From: an endosymbiont of Escarpia spicata
GTDB lineage: Bacteria > Pseudomonadota > Gammaproteobacteria > Chromatiales > Chromatiaceae
DNA: 64,000 bases
Assembly: GCA_003349915.1 (NCBI GenBank)
Contig: QFXE01000006.1
Coordinates: 1-64,000, forward strand
Direction: 5' to 3'
The position numbers and the translations under genes are program-made. Shown piece by piece: positions 54,602 to 62,282 of this stretch; the first letter of the stretch is position 1, and each line of letters starts with the position of its first letter. A model generated the notes under the pieces. That model made no database searches, was not told the origin of the DNA, and saw nothing but the letters and a program-made list of their open reading frames with translations.

Positions 54602-55933
54602 TTATTTCTTTTGTTTTACCGGATTGAGCTGATTTGCATCCAAGGTCATGTCATCAGGAAAACAGCAGCTGAAACAGCTGCCGAAACCCTCTTTACTGGT
54701 GATGCTAAGGTTGCCTTCGTGGCGGTTAATACTATGTTTCACGATGGCCAACCCGAGACCGGTTCCCCCTGACTGACGGGAACGCGCTTTGTCCACCCGG
54801 TAGAAACGTTCAGTCAGGCGTGGAATGTGCCGTTGTGGAATGCCGGGGCCTGTGTCTGTAACGGTAAAGCAGGCATTATTATCGGCATCCCGTTTCCAGC
54901 TGATGGTGATTTTGGTTTTCGGTGGTGTATGCACGATGGCATTGAATACGAGGTTTGACAAGGCGCTCTGCAGTTCGTTTTCGGTGCCCACGAGCCAGAG
55001 ATTCTCATCCACTTCGAACTCCAGTTGATACCCCCCTTTCTGATTCGCAAGCGCTTTGGCCTGTTCTACAATCGTGGTTAACAGCTCCGGGACCGGAACA
55101 GGAGACGGATGTGTAATTCTGTTTTCCATTTCGAGTCTGGAGAGTGTCAGCAGATCGTTGATGATGATGTTCATTCGCGCTGCCTGTTGGTTCATCAGCT
55201 CGAAAGGGCGCTCCTGAAACGGCAGTAGTTCATGGTCACTGAGGTTTTCAAGGAAGCCGGTGATTACCGTCAACGGCGTGCGCAATTCATGGGAGACATT
55301 GGAAACGAAATCCCGCCGTATCAGATTGAGATGGAACACCTTGGTGATATCCCGGGCCACGATCAGTCGCTGGCGTTTTTTTCCTCCGAAAGGTGTGAAG
55401 CGCATCGAGAGCACAACCGTCTTGTTGGTGGGAGAGGGAAACTCCAGCGGCTGACTGTAATCCGCGTTTGTGAGGTATTCATCCAGGTCGGGGTAGTGGA
55501 CAAGTTTTGTCAGTGCCACTCCTTCATCTCTTGGCCAGCTGATACCAAGAAGATGTCGGGCTGCGGGATTGGCCCATACAACCTCTTCAGCCGCATTCAA
55601 TAGAACCAGTGCGTCCGGTATGACGGATGAGACCTCTCGAAAGCGTGATGTGAAGCGATGGAGCGTGCGTTTGCGCTTCCGGCTGCGGGTATGCAACCGC
55701 TCCAGTTCATTGTAGATCGGCTCCCAAAAACCTATCGGTGTGAGAGAAGGTGTACGCTTTCGAGTGATGACGTAGTGGAACAGAAACAGCAATTGATAGA
55801 GGTTTCTCAGCAGGTAGAGAGTGACTCCAACGACTAGGGCAGGTGTCAGTACGTTGAAAAAGTAGCCGATGATGCCGCTGAAAAGCAACAACAACCCCAG
55901 CAGACGGATTTCGTAGAGGATTGGTTGAATCAA
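54602..55933 (-). CDS. phoR: phosphate regulon sensor kinase PhoR
   Basis: The 443-residue kinase has two N-terminal membrane helices (about residues 8-47), a PAS domain (about 95-200, 'ALVLLNAAEEVVWANPAA'), HisKA with His in 'FVSNVSHELRTPLTVIT' and HATPase 'DTGPGIP', 'GGTGLGLAIVKH'. It has no large periplasmic domain, as usual for PhoR, which senses through PstSCAB-PhoU. It is the last gene of the minus-strand phosphate block. Confidence 0.95.
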   Translation of the reverse strand: MIQPILYEIRLLGLLLLFSGIIGYFFNVLTPALVVGVTLYLLRNLYQLLFLFHYVITRKRTPSLTPIGFWEPIYNELERLHTRSRKRKRTLHRFTSRFREVSSVIPDALVLLNAAEEVVWANPAARHLLGISWPRDEGVALTKLVHYPDLDEYLTNADYSQPLEFPSPTNKTVVLSMRFTPFGGKKRQRLIVARDITKVFHLNLIRRDFVSNVSHELRTPLTVITGFLENLSDHELLPFQERPFELMNQQAARMNIIINDLLTLSRLEMENRITHPSPVPVPELLTTIVEQAKALANQKGGYQLEFEVDENLWLVGTENELQSALSNLVFNAIVHTPPKTKITISWKRDADNNACFTVTDTGPGIPQRHIPRLTERFYRVDKARSRQSGGTGLGLAIVKHSINRHEGNLSITSKEGFGSCFSCCFPDDMTLDANQLNPVKQKK

Positions 55934-56005: not shown

Positions 56006-56695
56006 TCAATCGGGCATCGAGGAGAATCGATAACCCACACTCCGCACGGTCTGCAGCATGGCGTCATGGCCTGAAGGGGAAAGCGCCTTTCTGAGGCGGC
56101 GGATATGGACATCCACGGTTCGCTCCTCCACGTAGGTTTGGTCGTCCCAGACATGATCAAGAATCCTGGAGCGGCTATAGGCCCGATCCTGGTGGGACAT
56201 GAAAAACAGCAGCAGTTTATACTCTGCGGGAGAGAGTTCCAGGGGTTTGTTTTGCACGGTAACCTGGTGTTTGGCCGGGTCGATACGCAATCCATTGCTC
56301 TCCAGCGGTTTATCATCACCACCTTTGTTGAAACGGCGCAGTACCGCCTTAATCCTTGCGATCAGTTCACGGGGGGAAAAAGGCTTGGTGACGTAGTCGT
56401 CCGCCCCGGCTTCGAGCCCATCCACCTTGTCCGATTCATCGGCGCGGGCAGTAAGAATGATGAGGGGGATGTCGCGGGTTTCCGGTTTCTGTTTCAGTTC
56501 CCGGGTCAGTTCAAGACCGGAACGTCCGGGCAGCATCCAGTCCATCAATATCAGATCCGGCAGCGAATGGGTGAGCGACTGCCTGGCCTCCTGGGCATGC
56601 CCGGCCTCATCCACCTCGTAATTCGCCACTTCCAGTCCGAAGCGAATCATCTCCCGAATTTCCGCTTCGTCCTCTACGATCAATATTCTGGGCAT
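56006..56695 (-). CDS. phoB: phosphate regulon response regulator PhoB
   Basis: The 229-residue regulator has a receiver domain (phospho-acceptor in 'LILMDWMLPGRSG', Thr of 'ILTARAD', Lys of 'VTKPFSP') and an OmpR-type winged helix ('YKLLLFFMSHQDRAYSRSRILDHVW', 'VDVHIRRLRKAL'). It would bind Pho boxes such as the one before pstS. It lies 14 bp beyond pstB, an unusual close link between transporter and regulator. Confidence 0.96.
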   Translation of the reverse strand: MPRILIVEDEAEIREMIRFGLEVANYEVDEAGHAQEARQSLTHSLPDLILMDWMLPGRSGLELTRELKQKPETRDIPLIILTARADESDKVDGLEAGADDYVTKPFSPRELIARIKAVLRRFNKGGDDKPLESNGLRIDPAKHQVTVQNKPLELSPAEYKLLLFFMSHQDRAYSRSRILDHVWDDQTYVEERTVDVHIRRLRKALSPSGHDAMLQTVRSVGYRFSSMPD

Positions 56696-56709: not shown

Positions 56710-57513
56710 TCAGCCGTAGCGGCCTTCAATATAGTCTGCAGTTTCTTTGTGACTTGGCGTGACGAACAAATCTTCAGTTGCCGTATGTTCGACCACTTTC
56801 CCCATCAACATAAAGATGCACTCTTCACTCGCACGCCGTGCCTGGGCCATGTTGTGAGTGACCATGAGGATAGTGTATTCGCCGCGCAGCTCCCAGATCA
56901 ATTCCTCCACAGCAGCAGTGCCTTTTGGGTCGAGCGCGGAACAGGGCTCATCCATCAGCAAGACGTTGGGCTTTACCGGGAGCAGACGGGCGATGCAGAG
57001 TTTTTGCTGCTCCTCAAGGGAAAGCTCCGTGGCCTTGATATCCAGACGATCCTTTACCTTGTCCCAGAGCAGGACCTGCTTCAGAGCGCCCTCGATGATT
57101 TCATCATGATCGGCACTGGAAGACTTCTGGCCCTTGTTATGGATCTTGTGTCCGAACAGGATGTTTTCCCGAATCGAGATTGGCAGCGGGTTCGGACGCT
57201 GGAAGACCATGCCGATCTGCTTGCGCACCTGGATCAGTTCGACCCCCGGATCATAGATGTTTTGCTCCATCACCTCTATTGTGCCCTCGGTGCGGACGTA
57301 TCCCAAGCGCTCGTTGATCCGGTTGACGCTGCGCAGAAAGGTGGATTTTCCGCAACCGGAAGGGCCGATCATGGAGGTGATCAGGCCCTTGCGGATATTA
57401 AGATTGACGTCGAACAGCGCTTGAAAGGTGCCATACCAGAGATTGAGGTTATCGGTATGGATGGCGTATTCGGCAGATGAGTCGTTCATTACTTCGGCGG
57501 TGGCAGTGTTCAT
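56710..57513 (-). CDS. pstB: PstB-type ATPase with degenerate signature motif (second of two)
   Basis: The 267-residue phosphate ABC ATPase has intact Walker A 'GPSGCGKST' (50-58), Q-loop Gln105 ('VFQRPNPLP'), Walker B 'VLLMDEPCSALDP' (Asp188, Glu189) and switch His220 ('MVTHNMAQA'). The ABC signature expected as LSGGQQQR is instead 'LSLEEQQK' at 164-171. Such a protein can supply one complete Walker site but not an active signature. It complements the adjacent pstB, which has the reverse pattern, suggesting an obligate heterodimer. Confidence 0.9.
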   Translation of the reverse strand: MNTATAEVMNDSSAEYAIHTDNLNLWYGTFQALFDVNLNIRKGLITSMIGPSGCGKSTFLRSVNRINERLGYVRTEGTIEVMEQNIYDPGVELIQVRKQIGMVFQRPNPLPISIRENILFGHKIHNKGQKSSSADHDEIIEGALKQVLLWDKVKDRLDIKATELSLEEQQKLCIARLLPVKPNVLLMDEPCSALDPKGTAAVEELIWELRGEYTILMVTHNMAQARRASEECIFMLMGKVVEHTATEDLFVTPSHKETADYIEGRYG

Positions 57514-57570
57514 AGCTTGTTCTCGAAACTGATCTGGAGTGAGGGGCCCGAAAAAGTCATGTCCGGATAT

Positions 57571-58389
57571 TTACCCAAACTTGCCTTCAATGTAATCCTG
57601 GGTCCTCTGGTCCTTCACCTCTCCGGTGAACAGATCCTCGGTATCACCGATCTCCACGCACTGGCCTTCCAGGAAAAAGGCGGTGCGGTCGGCCAGACGC
57701 CGGGCCTGCTGTACCAGGTTGGTCACCAGGATGATGGTCATCTCTGACTTCAACTCTTTCAATACATCCTCGATGCGCATGGTGGTGACCGGGTCCACGG
57801 CGATGGAGAACTCGTCAAGCATCAACACCTCGGGTTCCTGAGAGAGGGCGCGGGAGATAGTCAGTCGCTGTTGCTGGCCACCAGACAGAAGGCTGCCCAG
57901 GGAGTCCAGGCGGTCTTTGACCTCGTCCCAGAGCGCGGCACGGGTCAGGCAGCGTTCTACGATCACATCCAGCTCCGCCTTATTATTGATACCGCGCAGA
58001 CGGGGTGAGAGCGCCACGTTCTCGTAGATGGTCAAAGGCAGTCCTACGGGTAGCGGAAAGACAACGCCGATACGGCTGCGCAGGGCATAGACGTTTTTCA
58101 GTTTGCTGGTATCCAGGCCATTGAACAGGACGTCGCCCTCGACGCCCATATTCGAGTCGAAGGTGTTCATGCGGTTCAGGACCTTCAGGAACGAGGTCTT
58201 GCCTGCATTGGCGGGGCCGATGATGCCGAAGATCTCGTGTTCCCGCACATCCAGCGAGACGTTGCTCAGGGCCGGTACGTCGCCGTAGCTGATGGTAAGA
58301 TCCCGGACTTCCATCTTGATTGGGGCTTTGGCCGGGTTTTCCACTGTGGAGGCGGATTCGCTCAGGGTTTGCTGGGTTGCGCTTACCAT
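57571..58389 (-). CDS. pstB: PstB-type ATPase lacking Q-loop Gln and switch His (first of two)
   Basis: The 272-residue protein has a 25-residue N-terminal extension, Walker A 'GPANAGKT' (58-65), a canonical signature LSGGQQQR (168-175) and Walker B Asp192/Glu193 ('VLMLDEFSIAVDP', where the usual Pro is Phe). The Q-loop Gln is Pro112 ('VVFPLPVGLP') and the switch His is Asn224 ('LVTNLVQQ'). Its own ATP site should therefore be impaired, while its signature is intact. It overlaps pstA by 7 bp and is followed by the other pstB. Confidence 0.9.
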   Translation of the reverse strand: MVSATQQTLSESASTVENPAKAPIKMEVRDLTISYGDVPALSNVSLDVREHEIFGIIGPANAGKTSFLKVLNRMNTFDSNMGVEGDVLFNGLDTSKLKNVYALRSRIGVVFPLPVGLPLTIYENVALSPRLRGINNKAELDVIVERCLTRAALWDEVKDRLDSLGSLLSGGQQQRLTISRALSQEPEVLMLDEFSIAVDPVTTMRIEDVLKELKSEMTIILVTNLVQQARRLADRTAFFLEGQCVEIGDTEDLFTGEVKDQRTQDYIEGKFG

Positions 58390-59252
58390 TTCTTTTTGCC
58401 TCTCAAATGCATGCGGAAGGCGATTGAAACACTGTTCATAATCAACACCATGGCGATGAGCACCAGGGCCACGCCGTAGGGGAGTTCATCAGGGACGCCG
58501 GGGACCTGGGTGGCGACCACGAACAAGTGCAGGGACATGGCCATGGTCTGATCGAAGACGCTCTGGGGCAGGAAGGGCATGAAGAACACGGCTCCAGTAA
58601 ACATGATCGGCGCCGTCTCCCCCGCAGTGCGTGAGACCTCGAGGATGATACCGGTGAGGACGCCACTTATGGCGTTGGGCAGAACCACCCGGCGGATGGT
58701 CTGCCAGCGGGTGGCGCCCATATTCCAGCAAGCCTCCCGGAAGGCATGGGGGACTGATCGCAGGGATTCCCTGGTGGATACGATTATTATTGGTAGGGTC
58801 ATCACGGCCAGGGTCAGACTGGCGGCCAGGATACTGGTGCCAAAGCCGAAGAAGATCACGAAGGCTCCCACCCCGAACAGGGCATGCACGATAGAGGGTA
58901 CGCCTGCCAGGTTGATGATGGCCAGCTGAATGATACGGGTAAACGCATTATCCGGCGCATATTCATTCAGATAGATGGCTGCCGCCACCCCCAGAGGCAC
59001 GGAGGCAATCAGCGCGACGGCGACGATCCAGATGGTGCCCAGCAGGGCCGGAAAGATACCGCCCTCTGTCATGCCGTTGGTGGGATCCGTGAACAGAAAG
59101 TCAATGGATATAACCCCGCCACCTTTATAGACCAGGGTAGCCAGAATGATGGCCACCGGAACGATCAGGATGATGGTCATCAGCATGAACAGGGTTTTAT
59201 AGAGGCCCTGGACCTTTTTGTTTCTTTTGTTGAGATCGGATTCTGCAAACAT
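58383..59252 (-). CDS. pstA: phosphate ABC transporter permease PstA
   Basis: The 289-residue permease has about six membrane segments and the ABC coupling-helix region 'ESLRSVPHAFREACWNMGATRWQTIRRVVLPNA' near residues 170-205. 'GGIFPALLGTIWIVAVALIASVPLGV' is PstA-like. The start at ATG 59252 is 5 bp from the pstC stop. It couples with the two PstB-type ATPases. Confidence 0.94.
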   Translation of the reverse strand: MFAESDLNKRNKKVQGLYKTLFMLMTIILIVPVAIILATLVYKGGGVISIDFLFTDPTNGMTEGGIFPALLGTIWIVAVALIASVPLGVAAAIYLNEYAPDNAFTRIIQLAIINLAGVPSIVHALFGVGAFVIFFGFGTSILAASLTLAVMTLPIIIVSTRESLRSVPHAFREACWNMGATRWQTIRRVVLPNAISGVLTGIILEVSRTAGETAPIMFTGAVFFMPFLPQSVFDQTMAMSLHLFVVATQVPGVPDELPYGVALVLIAMVLIMNSVSIAFRMHLRGKKKW

Positions 59253-59257
59253 CTTGA

Positions 59258-60190
59258 TTACCCTTTGCGTACGCCGCGGACGACCAAGTCTGCGGTCAGG
59301 TTGATCAGGAAGGTGACGACGAACAGGAAGATACCGATGGTGAATAGCACCTGGTAGTGGGGCGATCCCACGGCAGTCTCTCCCAGTTCGGCGGCGATGG
59401 TAGCGGTCAGGGCGCGCACTGAGTCGAACAGGCTGCCTGGGATGTTCACTGCGTGACCCGTGGCCATGAGTACCGCCATGGTTTCGCCGAAGCCCCGGCC
59501 CACACCCAGCAGCACCGCGCCTAGCAGGCCGTTCTTGGCTGCTGGCAGGACAGTCTTGAAGATCACCTGCCAGCGAGTGGCCCCAAGCGCCTCTGCTGCC
59601 TCGCGGTAACGGTCGGGCACTGCCTTGAGCGCATCCTCTGCGATGGAGGTCATGATGGGCGCTGCCATCAGTCCCAGGATGATTCCTGCGTTGAGCACGT
59701 TGAGTCCTACCGGGACATCGAACACATCAATGATCAAAGGATTCATGATGGAGAGCCCGATGAAACCCCAGACCACGGAAGGAATAGCCGCCAGCAGCTC
59801 GACCAGGATCTTGAGGTACTCCCGGGTCTTGCCGGTGGCGAATTCGCCGATATAGATAGCTGCTCCGAGTGAAAATGGGATGGCCACGAGCATCGCCAGT
59901 CCGGTAACGGAGGCGGTACCTGCGGCCAGTGCCAGAATGCCGTACTCCGGGGCATCCTCATCGCTGGGTTCCCAGAATTCTGAGAAGAAAAACTCGCTGA
60001 AGGTGAAATCCTCCAGCAGAAATCCGAAACCTTCCATGGTGACGAAGGTAAAGATACCCAGAACGAAGATGATGGCGGAGATGCCCGCGATAAAGACCAG
60101 TACCTGAACCAGTTTGTCCAGATACCAATCGAGGTTGCGGCGGTCGAACTCCGCTGCTGTTGTTTGTGATGCAAGGTTGACTGCGGACAT
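59258..60190 (-). CDS. pstC: phosphate ABC transporter permease PstC
   Basis: The 310-residue permease has about six membrane helices, the segment 'YGILALAAGTASVTGLAMLVAIPFSLG' and the coupling loop 'DALKAVPDRYREAAEALGATRWQVIFKTVLPAAKNG'. It abuts the PhoU fusion gene and pstA. The start at ATG 60190 gives an N-terminal cytoplasmic tail before the first helix. Standard PstC features, no oddity seen. Confidence 0.94.
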   Translation of the reverse strand: MSAVNLASQTTAAEFDRRNLDWYLDKLVQVLVFIAGISAIIFVLGIFTFVTMEGFGFLLEDFTFSEFFFSEFWEPSDEDAPEYGILALAAGTASVTGLAMLVAIPFSLGAAIYIGEFATGKTREYLKILVELLAAIPSVVWGFIGLSIMNPLIIDVFDVPVGLNVLNAGIILGLMAAPIMTSIAEDALKAVPDRYREAAEALGATRWQVIFKTVLPAAKNGLLGAVLLGVGRGFGETMAVLMATGHAVNIPGSLFDSVRALTATIAAELGETAVGSPHYQVLFTIGIFLFVVTFLINLTADLVVRGVRKG

Positions 60191-60191
60191 A

Positions 60192-61268
60192 TCAGGAGGC
60201 TCCTTCGCCGCGCAGCAGTTCCATCAGATCCTTGACCTGCAGCGAGATTGCGCGGTAGAGATTTTCGAAACCCTGTTCGTCACCGGCCTCCGGCACCGGA
60301 CCCATATCCCAATCAAGGACGGTGCAGTGGAAGGGGATCTCGGGCAGATAGGATGACACTTCGCCTTCCAGGCTGACGATGACGTATTGGTCCGAGATCG
60401 CGCGCTCTGTCAGGTCTGCCAGCGAGGACGGCTGTACGTTACTCAGGTTCTGTCCCCGGTTTTCCAGGAAGGAGACCAGGTTGGGATTCAGGCTGGCGGC
60501 GGGCTGGCGGCCCGCGCTCAGATATTCACCGCTGTCTGGGTAGTTCCTGCGGGCGATGGCCTCTGCCATCTGGCTCTTGCAGCCGTTGTCCTCGTCGATG
60601 AACAGCACCTTGTAAACCTTGGGCGCCTTCTGTTCCCCGGTGCTGGCGAAAATCGCATCCTCGCACAGATTCTTGGCCTGGTCCGCGACCCTTTTCAACT
60701 GGGTGAAAACCACGAAAACGGCCAGGATATCCTTTACCTTGCCGCGGTCCTGGTTGGACATCATTTCGGTATAGATGCTGTCCAGATTGTTTTCCATCTG
60801 GTCGGCCAACAGCTTGGTGCTTCTGCCCATCTCCGCGTTGAGATCGTTGAAGGCCCGGATGGACTGGCGCAGCATCAGTTGGGTCTCGCTGGCCATCCGT
60901 TCCAGTTCCCTCGCCATGTTGCCCTCGGGCGGCTTGGATAACTGGGCGGCCTCCTGGGCGATAGTCACTGCGTAGTCACCGATGCGTTCCAGTTCCATAT
61001 TGACCCGGATGACCGAGGAGAGCAGGCGCAGATGGCCTCCACTGGGAAGATGGATCGCAATGAACTTATGACAGATCTGGTCTATTTCGCGCATGGTCCT
61101 GTTGATCGGGAGATCGTTCAGGACGGTGGCATAAGCCAATTTTGCATTGCCGGTCTGCAGGGCGTGTACTGCGTTGGTTACCGCGGCCTCGACCAATTCG
61201 GCCTGTTTCTCCACGCGGTTGCGGATTTTATTGAGGTCATTTTCCAAACGTTCTTCAAGATGGGACAT
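60192..61268 (-). CDS. phoU: PhoU fused to an inactive low-molecular-weight phosphatase/ArsC-like domain
   Basis: Residues 1-210 form a PhoU protein: two three-helix repeats with the metal-site motifs 'MELERIGDYA' (91-100) and 'LKRVADQAKNLCEDA' (191-205). PhoU represses the Pho regulon through PhoR and the Pst transporter. Residues about 217-358 resemble LMW phosphotyrosine phosphatase/arsenate reductase: 'KVLFIDEDNGCKSQMAEAIARR', where the expected loop is C-x5-R. Here the nucleophilic Cys is Asp225 and the Arg is Lys231; a neighbouring Cys230 remains. The domain is probably non-catalytic, perhaps a ligand sensor. Located between pstS and pstC, an unusual order. Confidence 0.85.
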   Translation of the reverse strand: MSHLEERLENDLNKIRNRVEKQAELVEAAVTNAVHALQTGNAKLAYATVLNDLPINRTMREIDQICHKFIAIHLPSGGHLRLLSSVIRVNMELERIGDYAVTIAQEAAQLSKPPEGNMARELERMASETQLMLRQSIRAFNDLNAEMGRSTKLLADQMENNLDSIYTEMMSNQDRGKVKDILAVFVVFTQLKRVADQAKNLCEDAIFASTGEQKAPKVYKVLFIDEDNGCKSQMAEAIARRNYPDSGEYLSAGRQPAASLNPNLVSFLENRGQNLSNVQPSSLADLTERAISDQYVIVSLEGEVSSYLPEIPFHCTVLDWDMGPVPEAGDEQGFENLYRAISLQVKDLMELLRGEGAS

Positions 61269-61397: not shown

Positions 61398-62282
61398 TTA
61401 GTTGCAGCTTACGTTGCGGATCGGTGCATAACCCTTCTTCAGGAGAATGCACTGGCCTTTATCACTCTTGACCCAATCGAGATAGGTTCCGATTTCACCT
61501 GTGGGTTCGCCGTTGGTGTACATGAACAGGGGGCGTGCAACCGGGTAACTGCGGTCGCTGGCGGTTGCGACGCTGGGGTTGACACAGTCATCGCCGGCTT
61601 TCTTGGAGATGCAGGCCATCTTTATGTGATCGGTGGCGTAAGCCAGACCGCTGTAGCCGATGGCACAGGGGGTCTTTTCGACCAGATCTACCACGTCCTT
61701 GGAACCGTGCATGTCCAGGGTGCCCTGACGGAACTTACCCTTCTTTCCCAGAACCGCCTTCTTAAAATAGACGTAGGTGCCGGAGTTGTTCTGACGGCTG
61801 ACCACCACGATCTTGTCGCTCTTGCAGCCGGGGACTGTCAGGCCGAGGTCAGACCATTTAGTCGCCTTGCCACCACGGATGTACACGTCCTTCAACTGCT
61901 CGAAGGAGAGGGATTTGGCGGGATTGTCATGATGGATATAGACGGCCAGGGCGTCGTAGCCAACCACGTGCTCCACCGGATGCTGCCCCTTTTTCTCGGC
62001 TGCCTTCACTTCCTTGGATTTCATCTTGCGGCTGGCGTTGGCGATGTCCACGGTGCCGTTGATCATGGCAGCGATGCCGGTGCCGGAACCACCGCCGGAG
62101 ACCGCGAGCGCCACATCGGGTTTGACCTCGCGGTAGTGCTCGGCCCAGGCCTGAGCCACGTTGACCAGGGTGTCAGAACCCTTATTCTGAATCACGGTCC
62201 GATCGGCTGCAGCGGGCAGGCTCGCCAGCAGGGAGGTGGCGGCAAATGCCAGGGTGAACAGGTTTCTCTTTTTCATCATCAA
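61398..62282 (-). CDS. pstS: periplasmic phosphate-binding protein PstS
   Basis: The 294-residue product has a signal peptide (about residues 1-27, 'FAATSLLASLPAAAD') and a PstS fold. Phosphate-contact regions 'NKGSDTLVNVAQAW', 'SGGGSGTGIAAMINGTVDIANASR' and 'SRQNNSGTYVYFKKA' are recognisable. Four or more cysteines in the C-terminal half may form disulphides. First gene of the phosphate block, under the Pho box. Confidence 0.94.
   Translation of the reverse strand: MMMKKRNLFTLAFAATSLLASLPAAADRTVIQNKGSDTLVNVAQAWAEHYREVKPDVALAVSGGGSGTGIAAMINGTVDIANASRKMKSKEVKAAEKKGQHPVEHVVGYDALAVYIHHDNPAKSLSFEQLKDVYIRGGKATKWSDLGLTVPGCKSDKIVVVSRQNNSGTYVYFKKAVLGKKGKFRQGTLDMHGSKDVVDLVEKTPCAIGYSGLAYATDHIKMACISKKAGDDCVNPSVATASDRSYPVARPLFMYTNGEPTGEIGTYLDWVKSDKGQCILLKKGYAPIRNVSCN

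Follow-up and report, generated by a model that had tools for sequence, protein, structure and literature searches.

The Pst phosphate importer of Escherichia coli is driven by two copies of one ATPase, PstB. In the solved structures of this canonical PstSCAB complex (PDB 9k3x, 9k3y and 9k3s), each entry contains two PstB chains of a single sequence. Here we describe a pst locus from an endosymbiont of Escarpia spicata (assembly GCA_003349915.1) that, in contrast, encodes two diverged PstB-type ATPases with complementary losses. The stretch of DNA analyzed, referred to as the window, comprises 64,000 nucleotides (contig QFXE01000006.1, positions 1 to 64,000). The two ATPases are encoded next to each other on the minus strand and were defined by translation, family matches and an alignment of relatives: PstB-D (D; 57571..58389; 272 amino acids) and PstB-C (C; 56710..57513; 267 amino acids).

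RbsA and NupO of Bacillus subtilis take up ribose and nucleoside, not phosphate. They are described in PMC11466899 as importers with one degenerate ATPase site; in contrast to D and C, both nucleotide-binding domains lie in one chain and the second Walker A lacks its Lys. In an ABC transporter, each ATP site is formed by Walker A, Walker B, the Q-loop (Q) and the switch His (H) of one subunit together with the signature of the other, and the exporters TM287/288, TmrAB and ABCB2/B3 have one consensus and one degenerate composite site (PMC7756269), as the variant described here would have. A changed catalytic Glu is a common mark of these exporters according to the same review, whereas the variant is an importer that keeps this Glu in 81 of 81 aligned D sequences (rows) and has lost Gln and His instead. 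An earlier reading of the window made without database searches, the sequence-only reading, had placed such asymmetric sites in exporters, which is correct, but the RbsA and NupO report (PMC11466899) shows that some importers have them too. Enterococcus faecalis, a member of the Firmicutes, has two adjacent pstB genes with non-equivalent roles in one pst operon; the variant shares this adjacency, but the Firmicutes motifs are canonical, with no degenerate site (PMC12096839). A Firmicute-style tandem was considered for the window pair and rejected, since both paralogues are canonical in such a locus (L082) and those of the window are not. Degenerate-site ABC exporters and importers and the Firmicutes tandem pstB were already known; what appears to be new, judging by sequence, is a complementary degenerate pair in Pst. 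Neither a degenerate PstB pair nor a Pst importer with complementary degenerate subunits was described in the open-licence PMC literature searched, in keeping with the sequence-only reading, which knew of no phosphate importer of this design.

The key residues named in that reading were borne out by both minus-strand reading frames. In D, Pro112 occupies the Q-loop position (VVFPLPVGLP; codon CCG, 58054..58056, minus strand) and Asn224 the switch His position (VTNLVQQARR; codon AAC, 57718..57720, minus strand), while LSGGQQQR is intact at residues 168-175 and Lys64 and Glu193 are kept. C retains Walker A (GPSGCGKST), Gln105 (MVFQRPNPLP), Walker B (MDEPCSALDP) and His220 (VTHNMAQARR), and has LSLEEQQK at residues 164-171 in place of LSGGQQQR (codons 57001..57024, minus strand). 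Two further changes in D had been overlooked: its Walker A (GPANAGKTS) and the stretch following Walker B (DEFSIAVDP, within LDEFSIAVDP) are also altered. A canonical PstB has Gln, LSGGQ and His in every subunit; D is without Gln and His, and C is without the two Gly.

These residues are fixed among the relatives. Eight rows with fewer than 225 matched residues (four C, three D and one other) were excluded from the motif and pair counts, and rows were assigned to D or C by overall identity to the window proteins, not by motif, which leaves degenerate relatives of lower identity uncounted. All 81 full-length, deduplicated D rows have Pro at the Q-loop position, Asn at the switch position, LSGGQQQR, the Walker A Lys and the catalytic Glu. 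All 77 C rows keep the Walker A Lys, the Q-loop Gln and the Walker B Glu and have lost both signature Gly; the switch His is kept in 76 of them. Complementarity was seen in every deduplicated locus with both full genes (74/74), as the sequence-only reading had expected of relatives: D is Pro/GG/Asn, and C has lost both Gly in 74, kept Gln in 74 and kept His in 73. By type, 71 of these C proteins have LE with His, and one each has LD, LA, and LE with Tyr. For comparison, a canonical set of 78 rows was taken from the 83 other PstB-like rows by removing three degenerate (L024, L026 and L177) and two distant ABC (L046 and L059) sequences; Gln, GG and His are present in all 78.

The pattern is not a matter of chance. 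The 80 columns that are at least 95% conserved in the canonical rows were also compared, with no motifs picked beforehand. Positions at which fewer than 10% of D rows have the canonical residue lie in Walker A (Ser, Gly and Cys), in the Q-loop (Gln, Asn, Pro and Phe), at several places around Walker B and following it, and at the switch His and a Met close by. In C, the same holds for the two Gly of the signature, the Arg beyond them and another five positions. The losses of ATP-site motifs appear to fall mainly in one composite site, that of D's Walker A and C's signature, and they do so in 74 of 74 paired loci. The design of one consensus and one degenerate site put forward in the sequence-only reading stood up in this respect, except for the D-loop. 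In a tree of 124 rows, part of those available, D (32 rows) and C (28 rows) each form one side of a 100/100 branch, with bootstrap values that are rough according to the program; this fits a single origin of each.

It is likely that D and C form an obligate heterodimer with one hydrolytic site that would power a variant of the Pst phosphate importer, because a D/C dimer would have one complete site and D2 or C2 would have none. We infer this dimerization, and which site turns over, from the motifs. Site 1 would combine Walker A and B, the Q-loop Gln and the switch His of C with the LSGGQ of D, all of them consensus motifs, and hydrolysis at this site alone would drive uptake. Site 2 would combine the changed Walker A of D, and its Pro and Asn in the places of Gln and His, with the SLEEQ of C and would not hydrolyze ATP. 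It probably still binds nucleotide, given that neither the Walker A Lys nor the Walker B Glu varies in D, and probably serves as a clamp that does not turn over. The Q-loop contacts the coupling helix of the permease. The altered Q-loop is that of D, so D probably docks on PstA, which would place C on PstC. The coupling helix of the variant PstA is specifically altered: after deduplication, it reads ACWNMGA, the motif of the window protein, in 43 of 73 sequences, and its Trp is kept in at least 72 of 73. Canonical PstA proteins read GSLALGA in 20 of 63 cases, and none of their ten commonest types has a Trp at this position. For PstC, 53 of 71 variant sequences read AAEAMGA or AAEALGA.

The ratio of nonsynonymous to synonymous substitution rates (dN/dS) against the window, calculated with five relatives, was 0.017-0.102 for D and 0.055-0.110 for C, with synonymous sites saturated in one of the five (L195). 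These values indicate purifying selection on D. When the window genome was searched with a PstB-type profile, the matches were D at 202 bits and C at 254 bits, with no other match above 117 bits. The same situation was found among the 26 genomes with the closest named loci: 11 of them (G378, G380, G381, G382, G385-G388, G392, G393 and G397) have D and C and no other PstB-type match at E 1e-50. Most of the remaining 15 have an additional PstB-type gene, some of which are canonical. No homologue of the phosphate transporter Pit was found in 8 of the 11, the exceptions being G388, G392 and G397. Pit genes are present in the window genome. One Pit (PHO4) match there (G000:C1:101453-102788) lies in two pieces in different frames and may be frameshifted; another, at C2:600255-601406, is unbroken.

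The named genome contigs were searched with D, and the best 80 of at least 588 loci were used. A sharp break was seen among these 80: 26 loci (L009-L034) with at least 54% identity have the same variant, and the other 54 (L035-L088), at 50% identity or less, are headed by canonical PstB. The 26 variant loci span nine labelled phyla. Their labels include Accumulibacter, Chromatiaceae, Magnetococcales and Gammaproteobacteria within Pseudomonadota, as well as Planctomycetota, Nitrospirales, Rhodothermales, Holophagales and other Acidobacteriota, Verrucomicrobiota, Poribacteria, Bacteriovoracaceae (Bdellovibrionota), a Deltaproteobacterium (Myxococcota in the tree data) and one unassigned bacterium. 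C, full or cut by a contig end, follows D in 24 of the 26, and the contigs of L025 and L034 stop at D or within it. Where contigs are uncut, the gene order is pstS-pstC-pstA-D-C; phoU lies either ahead of pstS or between it and pstC. Among 369 genomes sampled evenly from the window's class, the D profile picked out 8 with scores of at least 446 bits (the next match scored 300), and the C profile (E 1e-105) matched the same 8, adjoining D each time. D was found in 22 of 294 genomes in the phylum of G378 (the genome of L013, titled Planctomycetota) and in 28 of 247 in the phylum of G394 (the genome of L029, titled Acidobacteria). This patchy distribution is consistent with gene transfer or repeated loss. 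A plasmid origin was not supported, as the best 5,000 plasmid records were all less than 60% identical, nor was a mobile or phage origin, as the best 80 of 112 viral-contig matches were at most 50% identical.

The pair belongs to one minus-strand operon in which PstS, PstC and PstA all score above their curated cut-offs. The pstA permease gene (58383..59252; TIGR00974, 258.7 bits, cut-off 193.45) overlaps the start of D by 7 bases and is preceded by the pstC permease gene (59258..60190; TIGR02138, 274.6 bits, cut-off 196.45). Ahead of pstC lie a phoU gene (60192..61268) and, before it, the phosphate-binding protein gene pstS, of the PstS_2 type, at 61398..62282 (TIGR02136, 235.8 bits, cut-off 206.6), with its likely start at the ATG at 62279. 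On the other side of C, a response regulator gene (56006..56695) adjoins the operon and a sensor histidine kinase gene (54602..55933) lies beyond it, both on the minus strand and both identified by translation; from sequence and place we take them to be phoB and phoR. The E. coli-type Pho box pattern had 3 matches in the window, where chance alone would give 6.46, and none of the 3 lies close to pstS.

The PhoU of the window is fused to a C-terminal ArsC/LMW-PTP-like domain that lacks the catalytic Cys (FIDEDNGCKSQMAE). The domain scored above the cut-off for PF01451, and the model of the protein (mean pLDDT 90) matched PhoU 1t72 and the arsenate reductase 1jf8, the latter with a TM-score of 0.87 by target length. 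It shares its fold with the ArsC/low-molecular-weight phosphatase family, but it is joined to PhoU and its catalytic Cys is replaced in 46 of 47 fused rows. In the window, the catalytic CX5R loop is replaced by IDEDNGCKS, with Asp for Cys and Lys for Arg. The fusion was found in 46 of 61 relative loci examined, or 47 of 49 PhoU rows with the window included; two loci (L024 and L026) have a plain PhoU, and 13 have no PhoU row near D/C, including three truncated by contig ends (L025, L033 and L287). Of the 47 fused rows, 44 have Asp at the Cys position, two have Gly and one (L023) has Cys; the Arg is kept in 6, and only L023 has an intact-looking CX5R. Among canonical loci, 34 have a PhoU row, and none of these shows an ArsC-like domain. 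The fusion is thus associated with the D/C pair but separable from it, since some D/C loci have a plain PhoU or no PhoU row. A search of the open-licence PMC literature for PhoU-ArsC fusions returned nothing evidently on topic. Such a gene could easily be taken for a plain PhoU in annotation.

Several observations weigh against a D/C heterodimer that works through site 1. TIGR00972, the PstB equivalog, is the best family for both proteins, but C (319.3 bits) and D (280.8 bits) are under its cut-off of 343.2 bits and, therefore, are named PstB-type here and not PstB in NCBI's sense. The D-loop stretch of D is changed from DEPCSALDP to DEFSIAVDP or DEFSIAIDP in every one of the 81 rows. This loop normally sits at the center of the dimer, so that site 1 may not be entirely ordinary with CSALD altered to SIAVD. 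One C protein of the 77 (L183, from G733) has Tyr for the switch His (VTYNMAQARR). A single hydrolytic site would perhaps mean one ATP per phosphate instead of two, which is a guess. All 26 named relatives are titled metagenome-assembled genomes, of unstated completeness, which makes their missing PstB and Pit genes soft evidence. Finally, the genus mate G003 (L189:4834-6246) has an intact C and intact two-component genes, but its D is broken into four pieces, and of pstA only a fragment (residues 12-89) is left elsewhere on the chromosome, beside a pstC-like match. This reads as loss of the whole system, a rearrangement or an assembly fault, and not as C working alone. The sequence-only reading had named a locus with one partner absent and the other working alone as the result that would count against it; among the loci examined, none was found with intact permeases, contig-cut loci aside, and G003 is broken.

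G003 and the Pit genes of the window genome, together with the further canonical PstB in some relatives, could also suggest that the pair is a pseudogenized duplicate, or a reading error, beside another working Pst system. This is almost certainly wrong. Full-length D is present in 5 of the 6 genus genomes searched, that of the window included, at 94-100% identity; the sixth is G003. The codons in question, where the sequence-only reading had foreseen possible reading errors, are shared by genus mates and distant phyla, and together with the 81 D rows and the purifying selection they rule out an error or local decay; moreover, the window genome and 11 of the 26 relatives show no other PstB. 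D and C could instead form homodimers of their own, D2 and C2, in which both sites would be half broken and whose roles would be either different or interchangeable. Such an arrangement would be compatible with the sequences alone and would resemble the E. coli complex with its two identical chains. We consider such homodimers very unlikely, given a single pstA and a single pstC gene per operon, the joint presence of D and C in each of the 8 genomes of the class sample that gave a match, and a C without signature Gly that could complete a site only with D. Another explanation is that D is a pseudo-ATPase regulatory subunit, with site 2 sensing ATP, as a measure of energy, or phosphate and signaling via the fused PhoU to PhoR, so that the asymmetry would be for signaling more than for transport. 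The fused PhoU, its consistent change of Cys to Asp, unlike random decay, and the phoB- and phoR-like genes directly after D/C are in favor of this idea, which is compatible with a heterodimer. However, the loci with a plain PhoU or without a PhoU row indicate that the ATPase asymmetry is independent of the fusion, and the Pho box matches do not exceed chance. We regard a regulatory role as possible but rather doubtful. It is also conceivable, although unlikely, that this is a widespread, long-lived asymmetric Pst class in which the dead ATP site and the dead ArsC-like domain form a joint sensing module; the single hydrolytic site would use about one ATP per phosphate, and the dead site would report its nucleotide state via PhoU to PhoR.

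If D and C do form the proposed heterodimer, a second Pst design is spread across phyla, from Planctomycetota, Acidobacteriota and Verrucomicrobiota to Accumulibacter, a polyphosphate accumulator, among others, with one ATP site apparently permanently off. The variant allows one to ask whether two hydrolysis events are required in each cycle of an importer and what purpose a non-hydrolyzing site serves. A direct test is possible, since its partner proteins and those of the solved E. coli complex are members of the same families.

Third PstB-type ATPases were observed in a few variant loci. In L024 (8621-10935), the D/C pair is followed by an extra permease-like gene, a degenerate PstB-type ATPase (motifs GPTNSGKST and LSIGQQQ, with Arg and Asn in place of the Q-loop Gln and the switch His, respectively), and the plain phoU; these genes are possibly another degenerate Pst-derived system. 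In L026 (7612-8496), as in L177, a third PstB-type ATPase with eroded motifs lies directly after C and has Thr for Gln, LTTSMILQ at the signature and Asn for His.
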